A stretch of DNA of 20,387 nucleotides from a virus. Each line of letters begins with the position of its first letter. The first letter of the stretch is position 1. Below, in pieces: positions 2,537-13,794 of this stretch. The position numbers were made by a program, and so were the translations under genes. The DNA is taken from the IMG/VR virus record IMGVR_UViG_3300047481_000128, positions 1 through 20,387 of that record; one strand, given 5' to 3'. The notes under the pieces are model-generated. The model was given only the letters and a program-made list of their open reading frames with translations, had not been told where the DNA came from and made no database searches.

Positions 2537-2561
2537 TACAACTTAATAATACAGATGGCCC

Positions 2562-2590
2562 AGCCCAAAAGGTTGGGCTTTTCTGTTTTT
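2562..2590 (+). terminator. Intrinsic terminator after the major tail protein gene
   Basis: Perfect 7-bp inverted repeat AGCCCAA (2562-2568), loop AAGG, TTGGGCT (2573-2579), followed by a T-rich run to 2590 interrupted by CTG. An outer arm ACAGA (2551-2555) can pair with TCTGT (2582-2586), extending the stem across an internal loop. It lies 26 bases after the tube gene stop. It should end most transcripts of the tube gene before the chaperones. Confidence 0.8.
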
Positions 2591-2605
2591 GGTATAATGG
2601 ATTCA
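2590..2605 (+). promoter_or_regulatory. Extended -10 promoter for a leaderless transcript
   Basis: TGGTATAAT (2590-2598) matches the extended -10 consensus TGnTATAAT exactly. Counting about seven bases on from the box puts the transcription start at 2605, the A of the long chaperone's ATG. No Shine-Dalgarno sequence exists between the terminator T-run and this ATG. Both facts point to a leaderless mRNA. The box follows the terminator T-run directly, so transcription restarts as soon as the tube transcript ends. No -35 hexamer at normal spacing was found; extended -10 promoters often do without one. Confidence 0.65.
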
Positions 2606-3291
2606 TGCCTACTCAAATTTACGATAGTATAATTGTTACTTTAGTTGATGGATCAGAAATATATGTGACCCCTTTAAAAATAAAATATCTTAAACTTTTT
2701 ATGAAAGAGTTTGAAAGAGTAAGAAATGCTAAAAATGATCATGAGGCAATTGATGCATTATGTTCTTGTGTAACAATAATGATGAGACAGTTTTATCCTA
2801 AAATAAAAACACAAGAAGAGTTAGAGAATGCAATAGATCTTCCCACTATATATAAAATATTAGAATATGCTGGAGGAGTTAGTATCAATGAAAAATCCGA
2901 TGAGTCTGTAAAAGATCAGGCAACAAAAGGAGGGGCCACTTGGGAAGAACTGGATTTAGCAGAATTAGAATCCGAAGTGTTTCTTCTAGGAATATGGAAG
3001 GACTATGAAGAACTAGAATCGTCTATGTCTATGCCAGAATTAACATCTACTTTAAAAATAAAAAGAGAAATAGATTATCAAAATAAAAAGTTTTTGGCAG
3101 CCATTCAGGGCGTAGATCTGGACAAAGAAAGCGGTAAACAAAATGCCTGGGAAGAAATGAAGGCTAGAGTATTTAGCAAAGGCAAAGCAGCAAATTCTAA
3201 AGATGTTTTGGCCTTACAGGGGGCAAATGCACAAAAGGCTGGTTTCGGTATTGGTATGGGCCTAGACTATGAAGATTTAACTAAAAAATAA
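2605..3291 (+). CDS. Tail assembly chaperone, long (GT-like) form
   Basis: A 228-residue, highly charged soluble protein that should bind and hold the tape measure during tail assembly. Residues 1-95 form a G-like domain that matches the next gene product (hand alignment from TLVDG through FMKEFER: 15 identities in 30). After a hydrophilic linker (about 96-110), residues 111-228 form a T-like domain with TWEELDLAELESEVFLLG and WKDYEELESSMSMPEL, ending in FGIGMGLDYEDL; this domain is typical of the frameshift-added part of actinophage chaperones. Here G and T are already fused in one uninterrupted frame. I found no X-XXY-YYZ slippery heptamer in phase at the domain junction. The start lacks a ribosome-binding site and is probably leaderless. 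Confidence 0.75.
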   Translation: MPTQIYDSIIVTLVDGSEIYVTPLKIKYLKLFMKEFERVRNAKNDHEAIDALCSCVTIMMRQFYPKIKTQEELENAIDLPTIYKILEYAGGVSINEKSDESVKDQATKGGATWEELDLAELESEVFLLGIWKDYEELESSMSMPELTSTLKIKREIDYQNKKFLAAIQGVDLDKESGKQNAWEEMKARVFSKGKAANSKDVLALQGANAQKAGFGIGMGLDYEDLTKK

Positions 3292-3301
3292 AACCTCACT
3301 A

Positions 3302-3331
3302 TGGTATAATTATTTCACTACCTTAAGGAGG
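3302..3331 (+). promoter_or_regulatory. Extended -10 promoter and strong ribosome-binding site for the short chaperone
   Basis: A second perfect TGGTATAAT (3302-3310) lies in the 44-base gap between the two chaperone genes. Transcription would start near 3317, leaving a leader of about 19 bases that contains AAGGAGG (3325-3331), five bases before the ATG. CCTTAAGG (3321-3328) is palindromic and overlaps the ribosome-binding site, but is too short to be a convincing hairpin. Unlike the upstream gene, this one has a conventional leadered start. Confidence 0.6.
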
Positions 3332-3335
3332 AGAA

Positions 3336-3659
3336 ATGGCTACAAACGTGCAAGAAGAGAAAGAAATTACTCTTATTGATGGCACAAAAATTAAAATCAG
3401 ACCACTTAAAATATCACTGCTTCGTCAATTTATGAAGAAGTTTGAAGGATTGGCAGAAGTTCAAGAAGATAATGATAAGTCTATGACTTTGCTTATCGAG
3501 TGTGTTCAGATCGCTATGAAACAATACAAGCCAGAATTGGCAGAAGATCTTTCTAAACTGGAAGACGTGTTGGATTTACCAACGGTCTATCAAGTTGTTG
3601 AAGCAGCATCAGGAGTGAATCTTTCAGATACCGCACTTCTCGCTTTAGCACAGCAGTAA
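3336..3659 (+). CDS. Tail assembly chaperone, short (G-like) form
   Basis: A 107-residue protein made only of the G-like domain. It shares the order TLIDG...PLKIS-x-L-x-x-FMKKFE...DLPTVYQVVE...GV with residues 8-92 of the preceding gene product, so the two are paralogues. In most siphoviruses the short G and long GT chaperones come from one start with a programmed frameshift; here the short form has its own gene, promoter and a strong AAGGAGG site. The long C-terminal T-like part is absent. An A8 run covers the stop codon (3658-3665), but the -1 frame past it ends within a few codons, so it does not look like a frameshift signal. It probably coats the tape measure together with the long form and is released as tube forms. 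Confidence 0.7.
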   Translation: MATNVQEEKEITLIDGTKIKIRPLKISLLRQFMKKFEGLAEVQEDNDKSMTLLIECVQIAMKQYKPELAEDLSKLEDVLDLPTVYQVVEAASGVNLSDTALLALAQQ

Positions 3660-3684: not shown

Positions 3685-6600
3685 ATGGCAGGAGATGTAA
3701 ACAGCAACATTTTTATTAATGTTGATACTTCTTCGGCTATGGCACAACTACGTGCCCTCGAAAAAGAATTAACTGCTCTTAACCGTGCTCTTGTTGTAGG
3801 AACAAAAACTGCAGCCCAGGCTCAGTCTAAATATGCACAAGGATTACTTCATAATGTAAACGCAACTGGTCAGTGGACAGCATCTATGACCAGAATGAGC
3901 ACTGCATCAGAGCAGTTTGCTAATAATTTAGACAGATCTAGATTATCATTAAAAGAATACTTTCGTTATGGAATGGCATCTACTAAAACATTTGGTAGAG
4001 TTTTTGGTAGTGAATTTGATACCGTATCTAAGTTAGTTCAGAAACGTGTAAAGACTTTACAACAACAATACGTCCAATTAGGTCGTGATGCTCAGGGTGC
4101 AATGAACGGCCTTAAGTTTACACCAAAGGCATTAAACTATAGAGATGTAACCACTCAACTAATGATGGCGACTCAACGCCAGCAAATATTTAACAAATTA
4201 CTTGATGATGGCTCAACAAAACTTCTAAATTTTGGTAAGAATACTCAGTGGGCTGGTCGTCAATTAATGGTTGGTTTTACAGTTCCTTTAATGCTTTTTG
4301 GAACACAGGCAATCAGAGTATTTAAAGAAATAGAAACTCAGACAATTAGATTTAAAAAAGTTTATGGAGATATTTTTACCGATCCTGGTCAAACAGACTT
4401 AGCATTAAAAAATATTAGAGCCCTTGCTGACGAATATACAAAGTATGGCGTAAAAGTTGCAGATACAATCAAGATGGCAGCCGATGCTGCTGCTGCAGGT
4501 AATTCTGGAAAACAGTTAGAGCAGATAGTAGAGCAAACCAATAGACTTGCAGTTCTTGGTGGAGTTACACAAGAAAAAGCATTAGAAACTACAATTGCAT
4601 TAAAAAATGCTTTTCAAATTGGAGCAGAAGATTTAGATCAAACAATTAACTTTTTAAACGCAGTAGAAAACCAAACAGTTGTTGCTTTAGAAGATTTAAC
4701 AGAAGCAATCCCAAGAGTAGCACCAGTTGTTCAGCAACTAGGTGGAGACGTTAAAGATCTAGCATTTTTTATGGCTGCTATGCAAGAAGGTGGTATTAGC
4801 GCAGCACAAGGTGCTAACGCACTTAAGTCTGGTCTTGGTTCCTTAATTAACCCAAGCAATAAAGCAGCAGAAGCAGCAGCAAAAGTTGGAGTTAATATAA
4901 AAGGAATTGTAGAAGCAAATCAAGGAAATCTAAGAAATACTGTAGTTGGTTTTGCTCAAGCGCTAGAACCATTAACAGATTTGCAAAGAACAAGAGTTAT
5001 TGAAGACGTATTTGGTAAATTTCAATTTGCTCGTATTTCTGCACTTTTAAATAACGTTACAAAAGAAGGGACTCAGGCTGCAAGAGTCCTTCAGTTAGCA
5101 AATGCATCCGTAGAAGAACTTGGTATTTTAGCAGAACGAGAATTAGGAGTTCAAGCAGATTCGTCTATGAACAAATTTGTTGGTGCAGTAGAAAGACTAA
5201 AGGCTGCAATTGCTCCAGTCGGAGAAGTATTTGCTAAAACATTAACTCCAGTTATTGAATTTATAACAAAAATGGCAGAAAGATTTAATAAATTGCCAGA
5301 AGGTATTAAAAAAGGTATAGCAACAATTGTTGCTGTTGTGGGTGGGTTGGGACCTATATTCTTAATGACATTTGGTCTAATGGCTAATGCCATGGCTAAT
5401 GCTATGAAAGGATTCAATTTACTTCGTAAAGGATATCAGCAATTAGCGTATGGATCTTCTGATGCCGCTTTAAAAACACAGTATTTGTCACAGGAAGAAT
5501 TAGAAAACATATCTGTTACCAATGCTTTGTATTCTACACATGAAAGACTTTCTGCAGCATATAAGATAGAATCAACTGCCCTCGGAGCATTGATTGCTCA
5601 GTATGGTACTGCAACAAATGCGATGAGAAACTTTTCAATGGCCAATCCAGGATTATTTGTTCCTGGAAGAGTTGTTCCGCCAATTCGTCGTTCAGGTGGC
5701 GGTACAGTAAGTGGTCCAGGAACCGCAACATCAGATTCAATTCCAGCATATTTGTCTGACGGTGAATATGTAATAAATGCAAAGGCAGTCGATACCTATG
5801 GAGTAGGTACTTTTGATGCATTGAATGCAAGAAAATATGCTAGTGGTGGTCCAGTAATAGGCAAAGATGGGATACCACGTTTATTCACTGGCGGATGGAT
5901 GACAAGAATTTTAAACTCAATGCTTCCTAGAACAAGAATGGGGGTTGTTCAAGAGGGCACAAGTGGATTCGCATTGTCTGGTTTTGGTGGCGGTAGTAGA
6001 GCGACAGCAAGAGTCGGTGCTGTTACGCCTAGTCCAAACTTGCCAACATCCTGGAGAAAAATTCCTTGGGAAAGAGATCCCTCAGATCCAGAATCTTTAA
6101 TTATTTCAGATCCAAATACAGGTCAAAAATTTAAAATTGCTAAAACAAGTAAGGAAGGATTTAACAAACTTTATGATGATTTAGTTAAACAGGGCAGAAT
6201 TCAAAAACGTGGAGATAGACCAGAAATGTCTCCAGAAGAATATTTAGTTCATAGATTATTTAAAAAATATAGACAAGGCAAACCATTAACACCAATTAAT
6301 GTTTTAGGACAGGCTGGATCTGCAGGAAGATCTCGTGTAAGAATTACTGGGGCAAGTAAAGGTGGAGCATATAAAAGATGGGGCGATGCAGTCAGGGCTA
6401 GATCACCTAGAGTAATGTCATTAATAAGAGAATTTGACTCAGAAGAAGAACATTTAAGAAGAAATTTTCCTGAGTTACACGCTCAGTTATCTGATCCAGC
6501 ATATAATAGATTTGTTATTTCCCCATCTCACATATCCCCTGCTGGTGCAAATAGAAACGCCTCTTCCTGGGGAAGAGAATTAATATTAAGAGACTCATCA

Positions 6601-9600
6601 TTAATTAACATGGCAATGAAAGATATGACAAAGGGAAAGCGTATGCCAAAAAGCACACGACACCCAAAAACTCAAGCAGAGGCACAGCAAATTATCAATG
6701 CAATGGAAAACTTGGGTCCAGTAGATCAACTAGCACCAACTGTTCGTGGCGCTTTAGAAATATTAAAACTTAGAGTTAAAAATAATTTTTATGGAAGACA
6801 TGATATAAGTGATGTTGGGTTACAACTTAAATACGGAGGATTATTAAAACTTGCTGGTGGATCGGCATTTATTGGAATGCCAAAATCTTTTGCAAAAGTA
6901 CAGAAAACAAGAGCACTTGCTAAAACATTAGATGAAGGCGTTAGAGCAAGCAGATTCAGAAACCTTCCAATAACTGACACTGGCGTAAAAATAAAAAGCC
7001 TTGGCGGATATAGTGTTGGAGAAATTTCAAAATCAGTAAATGGAATTTATAGACATCCAAATGGTAGAGTGGTAGTTTATAAGGCAGTAGAAAGCGAAGA
7101 GGCTGCTCTTGCTGAAATGAGAATGTCTGCTTTAATGAGAAGTGGAAGTCAACTTAATACTCCAAGAAATCAATCAATTAAAGTTATTGCTGATCCAACA
7201 GATTTAACGAGACAAAGAAAAATACTTGCTATTGAATCAGATTATGATCCAAGATTTGAAAATCCAAAGGGAAAATTTACCAAGAAACAATTTATTAAGC
7301 AAACACTGGCTTCTGGTATTCGTGGGGATAAGGATGTTAAGAGATCAAATCTTAGTGAGGATGATGTAATAGATCAAGGAAACTCTGGCGTATTTAGTAC
7401 TGCATCAAGTAGATTTAAGTATGCAGATAGTATGAGGTCAGTTGAAGAGCAGTTGTTAATAAACTTTGGCGCAGTAAAAGGTGGTGCTTCAAAAGATTTT
7501 GCAAAGGCTGTTAAAAAAATGGCTAAACAGATGGGGTATCCAGCATTTAAAAGAGCGATGCTTAAAGAAATTGAAGAATCAATTCCCAGATATAGAGCAA
7601 CAATTAACACATTTAAATTAAATCCAAAAGAAAGAAAAATTTACGATGACTTAGTTTTGCGTTTAGAAGAATCCAAAAACGCTGATTGGAAGAAAATTTA
7701 TAATTCTGCTGCTGGTATTCCAGGATATGAAAACGGTGTATTCTCTGTCCCTGGTCCAAAGGGTGCTGGTGATGTAGTCCCTGCAATGTTGTCTCCAGGC
7801 GAAGCGGTAATTCCAACGGCAGAATCAGAAAAATATAGACCATTAATTAGATCTATCATTGCAGATAGGGTTCCTGGATTTATCACTGGACGTACTGGAA
7901 TAGATGATCCGTGGGATACTCCTTCAAACGCTCCTAAATCAAGAGGTGACATACTAGCAGATAAGATATCAGGCAAAGTTGCAGACGCAACTACCAGGTC
8001 TGGAATTTTGGGAGGTATCGCTAGAAGAATTACAAGCGCAGTAGACAGAGCAGCAAATTCTGGTCCAACCCCTATGACTTCGATGGAAAGAAACGCAGCA
8101 GCAGCCAGAGCAGTTCCAATGCCAGCATTTTCAGACTTAAAAGAATCTGTTGATAAAAATACTAAGGCAGTACAAGATGGCATTAATTCGTCTAAGAAAA
8201 ATACCAAGGGTGTTCTTGAAAGATTAAAGTTTGATAAAAAAGACAAAACAGAAAAAGACAAAATACAAAGAACACGTGGCTTAAGAGGATTTATGGGGGG
8301 ATATACCCCTGCTGCTGATTTTGACAAGGTTGTTGGAAAAGGTGGAAAAGAGAAATTTATAGCAGCCTCATCTGCTCAAAAAACAAATGCAAGACAACTA
8401 GACAGAATGAATCGTGCACAAAGAATGATGGGGCCTTCAATGGGAATTGCCATGGCTGGTTCTATGGCTGGTATGTACGCTATGAGTAATCCCGATAAAC
8501 AATTTATGGGCATGAATTTAGGCCAGTTGGCTGGTCCATTAATGGGAATATCTATACTTGCTGGACTTCTTCCAATGCTCAATAGTCCAATGAAAATGTT
8601 AATTGCTACAGCAATCGGACTTGTTGCTGTATTTAAAATGCAATCTAATCAAATAAAGCAATCAATTTTAGATGGTCGTGAGCAAGGTAAGACAATGATT
8701 TCTACTAAAGATGAGTTAGAGGCTTTTGGAGAAATTACAAATACAGTGTCTAAGACTCAAACCGCAGCAGCACAAAGAGCATCACGAACAACAGAAATTG
8801 TTCCAGTAAGTATGGAGTTTGGTAAAAACTTTGTTTTAAATAACGATTTTGGTAAAAAATTTCAAGCAGATTTTGAAAAAATAGTTGAAACATTTGGAAG
8901 AGGAGTTGCAGGACAGACATTAGCAAATCAATTGGCTACAGCCGTTGGACAAGGTGTTTTGACAGCAGAACAGGCACAATCTATTGCAATAGCACTAACT
9001 AGAGATCTTAAAGATGCAAGACTTGAAATGCAAGTTCGTGGAAAATTAATTGAACTACTTGGTCCAAATGGAGAAAATATAACTAAAGATCCTATAGAAT
9101 TACAATTAAAATTAATATATGATCAAAAACAAATACAGCAAGAAGCCTTTAAAAATTTACAAAATGTTATATCAAAAGAAAGAAATGGGTTGGCTGGTTT
9201 AAGCGGTAAAGAGGCTACAGCATTAGGCCTTTCAACAATACCTGCTGCTGGAGCAGGTGCTCTTGCAACGGGAGCAATGTATAGAGGACAAGTTATAGGT
9301 TACAACGTACGAGGTGCAGAAAATTTAGCGCTTAAAGGAAAACGTGCTCAGCAATTTATGTCTGCTGCTGAAATGGCAAGAGGAACTGGAAAGTTGAGTA
9401 TGGCTGCTAATGCAGTAAGAGGTTTACGTGTAGCATCGCAGGTTGGTGGAGCAGCAGCAAGCGCAACTGGTGTTGGTGCAGTTCCTGGCTTGGCATCAGT
9501 TGCAATAGGAACTATAGTATTTGGTTCCATTGAAGCAGGTTTACGTGCATGGCAAAAAGGTAATGAAAAGAAGGCAATAGGAAAGGCTGCAGGAATATTT

Positions 9601-12600
9601 TCTGGAGTTACAACAGAGTTATTAAAATCAACTCAACAATCAATAGATGCTTTTAATGCTCAAATTGGCGATCAAATTAAAGTGCTTGAGGCTAAAAAGA
9701 AAACAGCAAAAACTGCACAAGAAACTGCAGATATAGAAAAACAAATAGCCGTTCTTGAAAATCAAAGAACAGAGGGAACTAAAAAAGTTTATCAACAACA
9801 AGCAGAAATATTAAACAACCTTGAAGCATCCTATAATAAAATTGGAGAGTCTACTTTCTTTGAAAAAATTAGTCCATTTGGAACAGGTCGAGGTCAATTA
9901 AGACAAAAGTTTATGGAGTCTTTCCAAGAAGGAACAGATCTAAAGTTTAAAAAAGATCCAATGAGTCAAATGTATATTGAACAACTTCGCAAAGATTTAC
10001 AAAAAAATAGCGGACCTATTTCTGGCGGTGCTCAAGGCGTTGTTGATACTGAACGTCAAAAAAATGCAAGCGATCTTATTACATTAAAAATAGAAGCCTT
10101 AGTTAATTCAGATGTTTTAAGTGCAGAGCAGGCAGTAACTATGGCTTCATTTTTATCTGGAGATAGGTTAAAGGCACAGCAAGAACTAGAAGCAATAGTT
10201 ACAGTACATGGCAATGAAGGTCTTCAAAGAATGGCAATTTTACAAGAGTATATCCCAAATGCAAAAAATAAGAAAATTCTTCAGGTAATGCTTCAAGAAT
10301 CCAACAAACAAGATGCTGATGAAACAATGACTGCCCTTGAAGAATTAGTAAAACTTCCCAAATCCCTTGGTTATAATATTAATATAGAAACAAATAAAGA
10401 TGATATGGAAGATCTTGAAGTGATTGGACAAGAAATTGGTGATATCAAAAAGGCGTTTCCTAATGGACAAGTAAGTTTAAATTTATTACAAAACTTGCAA
10501 ACAAAATCTGGTGGTCCAGACAAAAATATGGGTCTGGCTCAGGCAATAAAATATTGGGATGCTATCAGCAGTGTTCCAAAAAATCTTCAGTTAAGCGCAG
10601 TAATTACTGTTACAGCCATTACGCAAAGTGATAGTTTTGAAAAAATTATTGATAGGGAAATGGAGGCAGCATTTCAAGCAGCAAATCCACAATTTGCAGG
10701 CCTTACGCAACAAATGCTGAATCAACTTCCAGATTCATTTAGAAAACAATATGAAACAGGATTAAATGCATTTATGAATGATGCAGCAGAAGAATCAAAA
10801 GTAATTGCAAAATATCTTGGAAAAACATTAGAGGATTTGTATGGAAAGGCAGTTCCAGATACAATAAAAACTCCAACCACAGGCGCAGGAGATGGAAAAG
10901 GAAAAGGCCCAGACACAAGTTGGTTATCAGACCTACTACAAAAACTTAAATTATTTAAAGAAGTATCAATCGATGCTACTGGCACGTATAAAGAACTTCT
11001 TGCCGAAGTAACTGAATATTTTGGACCAGACGCTTTAGCCTCAGTAAATCCTATGTTGGATAAACAAGTTGGTGCTTTAAAGCAAATTGAAAAAGCAGCA
11101 ACAGATGCTGGCTTCGCACTATCAACAGAAATGAAAGAGTTTATTCAAAGTTTGGACGCAGAGGCTTTTGAAGAATTTTCAAAAAAGTTTTTTACAACTA
11201 AAACAAACAAAAGAGGCCAAGTAACAATTACTGGATTTAAAGGATCTGCAGCGGGAAGTGATGCTGCATATGATAGGAGACAAAAAGATTTAGCATCAGG
11301 AAAAATCTTACCACAACAAGCATCTATTTTTGGTCAGGTAAATGAAGCAATGAAAACTGGAACCATAGTAGACTTTATTCAAAAACAAAAAGATGCTATT
11401 GATGAAACAAATAATCAAGTTATAGCATTTAAAAAACTTACTGATGCCACTGGAGAATTTAAACTTGATGCACTCGCTGCTATGGAAATCTTAAAGGATC
11501 CTAAACTTGCTAATGACATAGCGTTAGGAAAGAAAATATTTAGTGACGAAGACAGAAAAACAATTCTTTCTAACATACAAAAAACATATGTTGCAGCCTC
11601 TTCATTATCTCAAATAAAAATGATTCAAGGAACTCAAGAATTAAAGAACCAGGCTATTGCTTTTGATAAACTTGCTGCTGAGGGTTATGACTATGCTACT
11701 ATTCTTAAAATTATAGAAAATGAAGCGCATGCTTATACAATTGCTAATGATAATGTAAAAGGTCTTTCAGATGCTACAAAGGCTTTAGTAAAAGATACGC
11801 AATCTTATATTGATGCATTAGTAACTTTAGAAAATACAAAATTCTTTCAAGAAAGAACCAATGCTCTTCAACTTAAAAAAGACTTTGCTGCTATTGCTCC
11901 ACTTCTTCTAGAAATGGGATTAGGTCTTGAAGATATAAACGCAATATTAAGTAATCCTAATCTTGCAAAAGCATTTATTCAAGATTTAAAAAATGGTAAA
12001 TTAGACGCTGAACAATTAAAAAAATATATTGATGAAATTCCAGAATATAAAAGAGTTGAATTAGAACTTAAACTTTCTACAAGAGAAGGTAAGGAAGAAG
12101 AATTTGACAAACTATTTAATAAGGCAATGGAATATTATGACTTACTAGAAGGTAAAATTGAGGATGACTTTGAGCCGTTGCTTGAAAGTGCTCAAGATAA
12201 AATTGATGACACTCAAGAAAAAATTGAGGGTATCAATGAAGAGATTAAAGACTTCCAAGACAATATAGATACAAAACAAAGAAAAATTGAGTTAGAAATA
12301 ACAAGACCAATTGATGTATTACAAAAAGAATCTAATGCTTTAGGCAATGATCTTGACTTAATGAATAGAAGTGCTGATGAAATAACTAAGAGATATGACG
12401 AGCAGGCAGAGGCCTTAACAAAAGTTTTTGAGATAAATTCAAGAATAGCAAACCAACAAAAGCAACAACTAAGTCTGGCAGATGCGTTATCTCAAGGTGA
12501 TATTTCTGCTGCAGCATTAGCAGCACAAGAAATAAGAGCAACTTCAGCAGAAGCAATGCAGGAAGATCAGTTAGGTATTTTAGGCGCAGCAAAAGAAAGA

Positions 12601-13794
12601 GATATAGCCAATTTAAGAAGCAAGGGCGGATTAACTAGATTACAAATAGAAAATCGTCAATTTGCAATAAGTCAAGAAATATATGCTTTAGAGCAAAAGC
12701 GAGAAGTTGAATTATTAGCAATTAGGGATATCGAAGATAAGATTTATGACATAAAGGAAGGCAGATTAAAACTTGCACAAGATGAACTAGATTTAGCAAA
12801 TAAGGCTTTAAAAGATTATCAAAAGCAAAGAGATGCTGCTATAGAAGCAGTAGACAGACAGCGTGAAGTATGGAGAGATGCTAAACTTGCAATTGGATTT
12901 GCAAGAATAGATGCTGGTTATTATAATGATGTTATTTCATTCTCTAATACATTGATTGATTTAATGAAAGATGGTTGGCTTGGAGTTGGAGATGCTATTC
13001 TTGCTGCCGTCGCTGCTCTTGCTCTTTACAATGCTGCACTTAAGAAACCTGTTAGTTTTGAAGAGGCTCAAGCAAAAGCCCAAGCAACTCTTACTGGTTA
13101 TTTGGATAATTTTGGTACTCAACTTGGAAATGCAGATCAGCAAATAGTTGATCTAGAACTTAAGATTGCAGAGGCAATGGAGAAAGGCCAAGATACCACC
13201 GCACTAGAAGCACAGTTGACAGCCCTAAGAGAATCTACCGAATTACTAGCAGATAATATGTATGATGTGGCAGGAGCACTTGATAAAGTTGATAACGCAA
13301 CCAATATAGCACAAATTAATGCATCTGTATCAGAGGCAACCAGTGTTAAACAAAATCCATATGGAGATATAGATATTGAGTGGCTACCTAATCCAAGCGG
13401 TGGTGGTGCCGATATAGGATCTCCTGATGTTTATTCTAAAGGTGGAATAATCAAGCCAAAATATCTGCGTAAGGGTGGAATGACAAGTCCATTATACAGA
13501 CCTATGGGAGGATTAATTCCATATTTCTTGGGTGGTGGATTTGCTAAAGGAACAGATACAGTTCCTGCAATGTTAACTCCAGGAGAATTTGTAATGAGTA
13601 GATATGCTGTAAATGCTCATGGAATAGATAGGATGAAAGCAATTAATAGTGGTGACTCAATTGGAGAGTCAGTGTATAATTATAGTATCAATGTAAATGT
13701 TAAGTCTGATGCAAACCCTGACGAAATTGCACGGGCAGTAATGACACACATTAAGCAGGTAGACTCAAAGAGGCTTAGAGGAGCACAAATATAA
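3685..13794 (+). CDS. Tape measure protein
   Basis: A 3369-residue protein that sets tail length and is expected to enter the host envelope during DNA delivery. The start has a strong AGGAGG site eleven bases before the ATG. Order seen: residues 1-180, helical N-terminus (NIFINVDTSSAMAQL); about 183-600, TP901-type tape measure core ending in a hydrophobic segment (545-575); 683-697, first D-x-[IV]PA-x-L-x-x-GE motif; about 715-1350, a soluble insert including a kinase-like stretch (1106-1237); 1363-1376, second motif; 1582-1655, glycine/methionine-rich hydrophobic hairpin; 1849-1956, further small-residue hydrophobic segments; 1993-2050, coiled coil; 2393-2412, Gly/Lys linker; about 2828-3062, long coiled coils; 3097-3120, hydrophobic segment; 3291-3304, third motif; then the actinophage-type end (INVNVKSDANPDEIARAVM). 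No M23, NlpC/P60 or lysozyme motif was recognised. TAATG junction with the next gene. Confidence 0.93.
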   Translation: MAGDVNSNIFINVDTSSAMAQLRALEKELTALNRALVVGTKTAAQAQSKYAQGLLHNVNATGQWTASMTRMSTASEQFANNLDRSRLSLKEYFRYGMASTKTFGRVFGSEFDTVSKLVQKRVKTLQQQYVQLGRDAQGAMNGLKFTPKALNYRDVTTQLMMATQRQQIFNKLLDDGSTKLLNFGKNTQWAGRQLMVGFTVPLMLFGTQAIRVFKEIETQTIRFKKVYGDIFTDPGQTDLALKNIRALADEYTKYGVKVADTIKMAADAAAAGNSGKQLEQIVEQTNRLAVLGGVTQEKALETTIALKNAFQIGAEDLDQTINFLNAVENQTVVALEDLTEAIPRVAPVVQQLGGDVKDLAFFMAAMQEGGISAAQGANALKSGLGSLINPSNKAAEAAAKVGVNIKGIVEANQGNLRNTVVGFAQALEPLTDLQRTRVIEDVFGKFQFARISALLNNVTKEGTQAARVLQLANASVEELGILAERELGVQADSSMNKFVGAVERLKAAIAPVGEVFAKTLTPVIEFITKMAERFNKLPEGIKKGIATIVAVVGGLGPIFLMTFGLMANAMANAMKGFNLLRKGYQQLAYGSSDAALKTQYLSQEELENISVTNALYSTHERLSAAYKIESTALGALIAQYGTATNAMRNFSMANPGLFVPGRVVPPIRRSGGGTVSGPGTATSDSIPAYLSDGEYVINAKAVDTYGVGTFDALNARKYASGGPVIGKDGIPRLFTGGWMTRILNSMLPRTRMGVVQEGTSGFALSGFGGGSRATARVGAVTPSPNLPTSWRKIPWERDPSDPESLIISDPNTGQKFKIAKTSKEGFNKLYDDLVKQGRIQKRGDRPEMSPEEYLVHRLFKKYRQGKPLTPINVLGQAGSAGRSRVRITGASKGGAYKRWGDAVRARSPRVMSLIREFDSEEEHLRRNFPELHAQLSDPAYNRFVISPSHISPAGANRNASSWGRELILRDSSLINMAMKDMTKGKRMPKSTRHPKTQAEAQQIINAMENLGPVDQLAPTVRGALEILKLRVKNNFYGRHDISDVGLQLKYGGLLKLAGGSAFIGMPKSFAKVQKTRALAKTLDEGVRASRFRNLPITDTGVKIKSLGGYSVGEISKSVNGIYRHPNGRVVVYKAVESEEAALAEMRMSALMRSGSQLNTPRNQSIKVIADPTDLTRQRKILAIESDYDPRFENPKGKFTKKQFIKQTLASGIRGDKDVKRSNLSEDDVIDQGNSGVFSTASSRFKYADSMRSVEEQLLINFGAVKGGASKDFAKAVKKMAKQMGYPAFKRAMLKEIEESIPRYRATINTFKLNPKERKIYDDLVLRLEESKNADWKKIYNSAAGIPGYENGVFSVPGPKGAGDVVPAMLSPGEAVIPTAESEKYRPLIRSIIADRVPGFITGRTGIDDPWDTPSNAPKSRGDILADKISGKVADATTRSGILGGIARRITSAVDRAANSGPTPMTSMERNAAAARAVPMPAFSDLKESVDKNTKAVQDGINSSKKNTKGVLERLKFDKKDKTEKDKIQRTRGLRGFMGGYTPAADFDKVVGKGGKEKFIAASSAQKTNARQLDRMNRAQRMMGPSMGIAMAGSMAGMYAMSNPDKQFMGMNLGQLAGPLMGISILAGLLPMLNSPMKMLIATAIGLVAVFKMQSNQIKQSILDGREQGKTMISTKDELEAFGEITNTVSKTQTAAAQRASRTTEIVPVSMEFGKNFVLNNDFGKKFQADFEKIVETFGRGVAGQTLANQLATAVGQGVLTAEQAQSIAIALTRDLKDARLEMQVRGKLIELLGPNGENITKDPIELQLKLIYDQKQIQQEAFKNLQNVISKERNGLAGLSGKEATALGLSTIPAAGAGALATGAMYRGQVIGYNVRGAENLALKGKRAQQFMSAAEMARGTGKLSMAANAVRGLRVASQVGGAAASATGVGAVPGLASVAIGTIVFGSIEAGLRAWQKGNEKKAIGKAAGIFSGVTTELLKSTQQSIDAFNAQIGDQIKVLEAKKKTAKTAQETADIEKQIAVLENQRTEGTKKVYQQQAEILNNLEASYNKIGESTFFEKISPFGTGRGQLRQKFMESFQEGTDLKFKKDPMSQMYIEQLRKDLQKNSGPISGGAQGVVDTERQKNASDLITLKIEALVNSDVLSAEQAVTMASFLSGDRLKAQQELEAIVTVHGNEGLQRMAILQEYIPNAKNKKILQVMLQESNKQDADETMTALEELVKLPKSLGYNINIETNKDDMEDLEVIGQEIGDIKKAFPNGQVSLNLLQNLQTKSGGPDKNMGLAQAIKYWDAISSVPKNLQLSAVITVTAITQSDSFEKIIDREMEAAFQAANPQFAGLTQQMLNQLPDSFRKQYETGLNAFMNDAAEESKVIAKYLGKTLEDLYGKAVPDTIKTPTTGAGDGKGKGPDTSWLSDLLQKLKLFKEVSIDATGTYKELLAEVTEYFGPDALASVNPMLDKQVGALKQIEKAATDAGFALSTEMKEFIQSLDAEAFEEFSKKFFTTKTNKRGQVTITGFKGSAAGSDAAYDRRQKDLASGKILPQQASIFGQVNEAMKTGTIVDFIQKQKDAIDETNNQVIAFKKLTDATGEFKLDALAAMEILKDPKLANDIALGKKIFSDEDRKTILSNIQKTYVAASSLSQIKMIQGTQELKNQAIAFDKLAAEGYDYATILKIIENEAHAYTIANDNVKGLSDATKALVKDTQSYIDALVTLENTKFFQERTNALQLKKDFAAIAPLLLEMGLGLEDINAILSNPNLAKAFIQDLKNGKLDAEQLKKYIDEIPEYKRVELELKLSTREGKEEEFDKLFNKAMEYYDLLEGKIEDDFEPLLESAQDKIDDTQEKIEGINEEIKDFQDNIDTKQRKIELEITRPIDVLQKESNALGNDLDLMNRSADEITKRYDEQAEALTKVFEINSRIANQQKQQLSLADALSQGDISAAALAAQEIRATSAEAMQEDQLGILGAAKERDIANLRSKGGLTRLQIENRQFAISQEIYALEQKREVELLAIRDIEDKIYDIKEGRLKLAQDELDLANKALKDYQKQRDAAIEAVDRQREVWRDAKLAIGFARIDAGYYNDVISFSNTLIDLMKDGWLGVGDAILAAVAALALYNAALKKPVSFEEAQAKAQATLTGYLDNFGTQLGNADQQIVDLELKIAEAMEKGQDTTALEAQLTALRESTELLADNMYDVAGALDKVDNATNIAQINASVSEATSVKQNPYGDIDIEWLPNPSGGGADIGSPDVYSKGGIIKPKYLRKGGMTSPLYRPMGGLIPYFLGGGFAKGTDTVPAMLTPGEFVMSRYAVNAHGIDRMKAINSGDSIGESVYNYSINVNVKSDANPDEIARAVMTHIKQVDSKRLRGAQI

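Follow-up and report, generated by a model that had tools for sequence, protein, structure and literature searches.

How can a phage supply a short and a long tail assembly chaperone when the long one is read from a single continuous frame and the short one from a gene of its own? Few recoding events in tailed phages are as conserved as the chaperone frameshift, and lambda needs a gpG:gpGT ratio of about 30:1, which is made by frameshifting (PMC5009743). The locus considered here lies in the 20,387-base virus record IMGVR_UViG_3300047481_000128, which carries a tail module and is referred to in full as the window. We suggest that its two genes, GT and G2, are quite probably the tail assembly chaperones of a long-tailed phage in which a duplicated gene would have replaced the frameshift, and that the excess of G over GT would now be set at initiation.

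Gene layout of the locus

On the plus strand the window has, in order, three small genes, the major tail protein gene, GT, G2, the tape measure gene and further tail genes. The major tail protein gene (1919–2536) matches phrog_2175, 'protein with Ig domain' (E 4e-30), and the gene in the same position is annotated as major tail protein in EGole and Circinus. The region upstream of it (1848–1918) holds a TATAAT of its own (about 1859–1864) and a Shine-Dalgarno sequence of the GAGGTGA type, so several genes of the tail cluster may carry their own promoter.

GT (2605–3291) encodes a long chaperone of 228 amino acids, in which a G domain (2605–2904) is fused in frame to a T domain (2941–3288). It is followed by the short gene G2 (3336–3659, 107 amino acids); the coordinates and lengths of both reading frames are as they were given in the initial annotation of this DNA. 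Next comes the tape measure gene (3685–13794, 3369 amino acids), identified by phrog_10030, tail length tape measure (E 2e-89), and PF10145. GT and G2 thus sit between the major tail protein and tape measure protein genes, as lambda-type G/GT chaperones do. The tape measure protein itself is matched by Pfam tape measure families in its N-terminal part only, leaving a long middle stretch with no Pfam match, and by eye it contains several repeats of a GxDTVPAMLxPGEFVI-like motif.

Two paralogous G domains

The initial annotation had aligned the two G domains by hand. This alignment was correct in kind, as BLASTP of GT against G2 finds 36/100 identities and 67/100 positives in the G domain with an E-value of 8e-23, far beyond chance. 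The profile search agrees: phrog_10504 matches both GT (5e-21) and G2 (6e-22), so the second protein does not belong to an unrelated family, while phrog_10474 matches the C-terminal half of GT. Judged by sequence, G2 is a true paralogue of the G domain of GT, i.e., the short and the long protein share an N-terminal G domain as paralogues and not as one shared coding sequence. Both the G and the T domain are homologous in sequence to a Stanwilliamsviridae-like chaperone family, represented by the same two groups, phrog_10504 and phrog_10474.

The structure model of G2 (mean pLDDT 75) consists of two strands followed by helices, and among viral structures it matches a tail assembly chaperone best (E 5e-8). 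When the model is re-aligned to PDB structures, the HK97 chaperone gp13 (2ob9) ties for first place, with a weak match that is within noise (Z 4.5, rmsd 5.2 over 88 residues, 8% identity). The model of GT is confident in the G half only.

Fused and split relatives

IMG/VR was scanned with G2, GT and T-domain queries, and together with seven phage records this gave 258 loci, some of which share a contig. The set divides into 212 loci with a continuous GT followed by G2 (two of them being the window itself), 39 with G and T split, 2 that are split with a divergent G, and 5 truncated by the end of their contig. The extra G gene, which had been noticed beside the fused GT in a single sequence, is present in the survey of relatives at 212/212 fused loci that lie complete within their contig. 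The presence of G2 is not imposed by the query, since 132 of the fused loci were retrieved by GT (77) or by the T alignment (55). Nor is the continuous frame an artefact of sequencing or assembly, as it is open, and the arrangement kept, in 109 distinct full-length sequences.

The split loci (n = 41) have T in the −1 frame, and no second G gene was seen among them. No intermediate was found in the survey: there is no split G/T accompanied by G2, and a fused GT lacking G2 occurs only at three loci that end with the contig.

Searching phage records with tblastn gave matches in 127 Streptomyces phages, and all the records examined are from Stanwilliamsviridae. In these phages the counterpart of the G part is a gene of its own, which often carries the annotation tail assembly chaperone, and that of the T part is the ORF after it, which is in the −1 frame relative to G at every locus inspected directly. 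The T domain of GT is homologous to these −1 frame ORFs in EGole, Circinus, Coruscant and Yaboi. Split relatives repeatedly show a slippery heptamer, CCCAAAT/C or GGGAAAC, at corresponding positions, and in many Streptomyces phage loci a canonical CCCAAAT or CCCAAAC lies within the overlap of G and T. By sequence, the GT/G2 pair stands where its sister lineages have a −1 programmed frameshift arrangement.

Two groups of split loci vary on this pattern. Samistivirus-like Streptomyces phages (L165, 1001–1662; L003, 4288–4345) have no canonical heptamer and conserve CCCGGAA at the matching place, which is a possible non-canonical slippery site; in Yaboi, from the wider Samistivirus-like group, G and T are annotated as a joined gene. 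The two loci with a divergent G (L178 and L179, 2546–3309) have a longer G that is matched in two HMM pieces, a split −1 T and CCCAAAT, and they group with the Streptomyces-type phages.

Apparent loss of the frameshift

In each of the 212 fused loci GT reads through as a single frame. In the window its only in-frame heptamers of the X XXY YYZ type are at 2670, 2673 and 3051. The stretch 2850–2960, which had been named as the place to look for a slippery site, has none, and none is conserved at the junction of G and T. Among the 109 distinct sequences no conserved slippery site was found in GT, and the commonest in-frame heptamer of this type, present in 25/109, is in the T domain and not at the junction.

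G2, too, is nearly free of such sites. The window copy has no slippery heptamer; when the 3' ends are aligned by eye, the codons GAT ACC GCA (3627–3635) roughly match the place where split relatives have GAC CCA AAT. Any heptamer at all in the last 75 nt of G2 is seen in only 3/109 sequences. A remnant of T after G2 was ruled out, the −1 frame staying open for a median of 5 codons past the G2 stop, and the gap between G2 and the tape measure gene has a median of 23 nt.

Evolutionary history

The short T alignment alone leaves it unsettled whether the fused loci form one clade (p-AU 0.488), and the tree was therefore built from the tape measure protein (N-terminus, 614 columns). In this tree the fused phages are on one side of a single branch with SH-aLRT 99. 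Their sister group consists of four split metagenomic phages with GGGAAAC (L181, L187, L191 and L207), and all the more distant lineages sampled are split. With the fused phages forming a single clade within the split ones, one switch is the simplest history.

The tree of the G domains helps to infer which copy has changed. The G domains of GT (G1) form one clade (99/89), while G2 groups weakly with the G genes of the split sister phages (92/44). G2 also retains the regulatory layout of the split G genes, a −10 element and then a Shine-Dalgarno sequence. The simplest reading of these data is one duplication, with the G domain of GT as the derived copy. The duplication followed by loss of the frameshift that was first proposed from the window has thus survived comparative testing, with both the sister and the outgroup lineages keeping the split −1 arrangement.

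In the probable course of events, either the whole unit of G and −1 T, or G alone, was duplicated once. In the first copy G and T would then have been fused into one frame. The second copy would have retained G with the Shine-Dalgarno start, while T and the slippery site disappeared from it.

Start signals and codon usage

Start signals were compared in 108 distinct loci. Between the major tail gene and GT, the window contains a terminator-like hairpin followed by a T-run, GCCCAGCCC-AAAA-GGTTGGGC-TTTTCTGT (2558–2586, plus strand). Such a hairpin precedes GT in 81/108 relatives, compared with 2/108 shuffled sequences, and similar hairpins are scarce further on, with five between GT and G2 and one after G2 over the 108 loci.

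After the hairpin comes an extended −10 element, TGGTATAAT (2590–2598, plus strand), which ends 6 nt before the ATG of GT. This distance is exactly 6 nt in 83/108 loci and 4–9 nt in 96/108, against 6/672 other ORFs. As transcription starts about 7 nt after a −10 element, the GT message is predicted to begin at its own start codon, i.e., to be leaderless. In 12/108 loci the −10 is at 14–15 nt, which would give a very short leader instead of none. A Shine-Dalgarno sequence at the GT start was looked for and is present in 0/108.

The same extended −10, TGGTATAAT, precedes G2 (3302–3310, plus strand), here about 25 nt before the ATG, a distance that is mostly 24–28 nt in the relatives. It is followed by a Shine-Dalgarno sequence, AGGAGG (3326–3331, plus strand), present in 108/108 relatives. 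The TGn extension is found at both genes (GT 100/108, G2 108/108), and the −10 itself is TATAAT in 106/108 loci for G2 but in only 50/108 for GT. The suggestion of the initial annotation that the two genes use two promoters and two types of start is supported by these counts.

Leaderless translation is well known in Actinobacteria. Kinship with the Streptomyces phages is what suggests an actinobacterial host for this phage; scans of genome contigs found no host relatives.

Codon adaptation was scored against the codons of the major tail protein and is, like the match to the −10 consensus, an indirect proxy of expression. Its median is 0.709 for the major tail protein, 0.616 for G2, 0.539 for the tape measure and 0.475 for GT. 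G2 scores higher than GT in 100/101 loci and in 20/21 diverged representatives (p 2e-6). In the window, GT has the lowest value of the nine genes scored (0.422), and G2 has 0.573.

How the ratio could be set, and alternative explanations

If the two proteins work as in lambda, the tape measure would be coated by many G subunits, and a small number of GT subunits would recruit the tail-tube protein through T. GT would be cut off from the tail-tube transcript by the terminator; its own message would be leaderless, its −10 is often weaker and its codons are poor. G2 would have a consensus extended −10, a strong Shine-Dalgarno sequence and better codons and, since no terminator stands between the genes, is probably also translated from the GT transcript. 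The opposite start signals would thus probably keep the short form in excess, and we infer that it is they that set the ratio of short to long form. On balance we favour the full scenario, in which a duplicated gene took the place of the frameshift in one event and the ratio became fixed by a leaderless GT with a weaker promoter and poor codons on one side and a Shine-Dalgarno-led G2 with a strong promoter on the other.

A possible but unlikely alternative is that the roles of the proteins have diverged and that the pair is not a ratio device. The G domain of GT would then serve mainly as an anchor in a mixed assembly and G2 as the coat of the tape measure, while the differences between the starts would be untuned, arising from a relaxed need for GT. 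Median pairwise dN/dS values, taken from the roughly half of the pairs that are unsaturated, are 0.226 for the G domain of GT, 0.131 for T and 0.125 for G2. All three domains are therefore under purifying selection, and the faster evolution of G1 relative to G2, as well as its separate clade on a long stem, would fit such a divergence. However, even very diverged loci retain the leaderless spacing, the lack of a Shine-Dalgarno sequence and the terminator before GT, a conservation suggestive of selection on expression. Divergence of roles is also compatible with a ratio set by start signals and may be partly true.

It is much less probable that the first gene still yields a short G by an unrecognised route, such as a non-canonical frameshift to an early stop, transcript slippage or proteolysis, with G2 as an added paralogue. 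An A AAA AAR heptamer in the T domain (residue 161) does occur in 25/109 loci, with the −1 stop mostly 10–16 codons further on, and slippery sites that depart from the X XXY YYZ pattern are known (PMC10885494). However, no site is conserved in most loci and none is at the junction. The junction is ordinary in other respects too: the linker contains no run of eight or more A/T, the RNA fold is not unusual (z −0.58) and there is no synonymous constraint, with a fourfold third-base identity of 0.45–0.46 in the linker vs 0.35–0.55 elsewhere. A hidden frameshift or slippage in GT was rejected on these grounds, and its short product would be redundant with the stand-alone G gene. That GT and G2 are some other pair of tail-module proteins is less probable still: searches of Pfam and PDB with the sequences gave nothing above noise and no Pfam family above its cut-off, phrog_10504 and phrog_10474 are listed as of unknown function and the PDB structural match is weak, but the position between tail tube and tape measure, the homology to genes of many Streptomyces phages that are annotated as tail assembly chaperones and the −1 split with slippery sites in the relatives, which is the hallmark of the chaperone gene pair, all argue against it.

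Comparison with known systems

Among the closest known systems are the Streptomyces Stanwilliamsviridae (EGole, Circinus, Coruscant, Yaboi and Gilson). They have a homologous G and T between the major tail protein and the tape measure, and a −10 and a Shine-Dalgarno sequence before G. They differ in having a single G gene with T in the −1 frame, in many cases with a slippery site, and they have neither a second G nor a continuous GT. In the open-access literature we found no account of the GT and G2 arrangement in the Stanwilliamsviridae-like group, and none of a division between chaperone genes into leaderless and Shine-Dalgarno starts.

Judging from the loci surveyed, a large group of environmental phages related to the Streptomyces phages appears to have swapped the near-universal chaperone frameshift for two genes. 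A lineage without the frameshift beside close relatives that keep it allows one to ask, as a natural experiment, whether the frameshift is important in its own right or whether the ratio it produces is all that counts. The same lineage offers a comparative case of two paralogous subunits whose stoichiometry appears to be set by leaderless vs Shine-Dalgarno initiation. For annotators, it is a warning against assuming that a pair of chaperone genes in such phages has to be joined.

As in lambda gpG and gpGT, the short and the long chaperone share an N-terminal domain. In lambda, however, both forms are made from one start by −1 frameshifting, while here there are two genes. Some Microbacterium cluster EA phages are described as having two chaperone ORFs with no evident frameshift, while other members of the group frameshift (PMC7302621). 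This resembles the present case in that a chaperone pair with no evident frameshift is found within a frameshifting group. The two ORFs of the EA phages are said to be separately expressed, and a duplicated G with a fused GT is not described in the available part of that report. A precedent that the initial annotation does not mention is reported for some T4-like phages, in which the short chaperone has a gene to itself and the long one is encoded by a fused gene, likewise with no frameshift (Vladimirov et al. 2022, as cited in PMC10885494); these phages are contractile-tailed. Relative to the T4-like precedent as it is cited there, what is added here is the apparent single switch inside a frameshifting lineage, together with the division into a predicted leaderless and a Shine-Dalgarno start.
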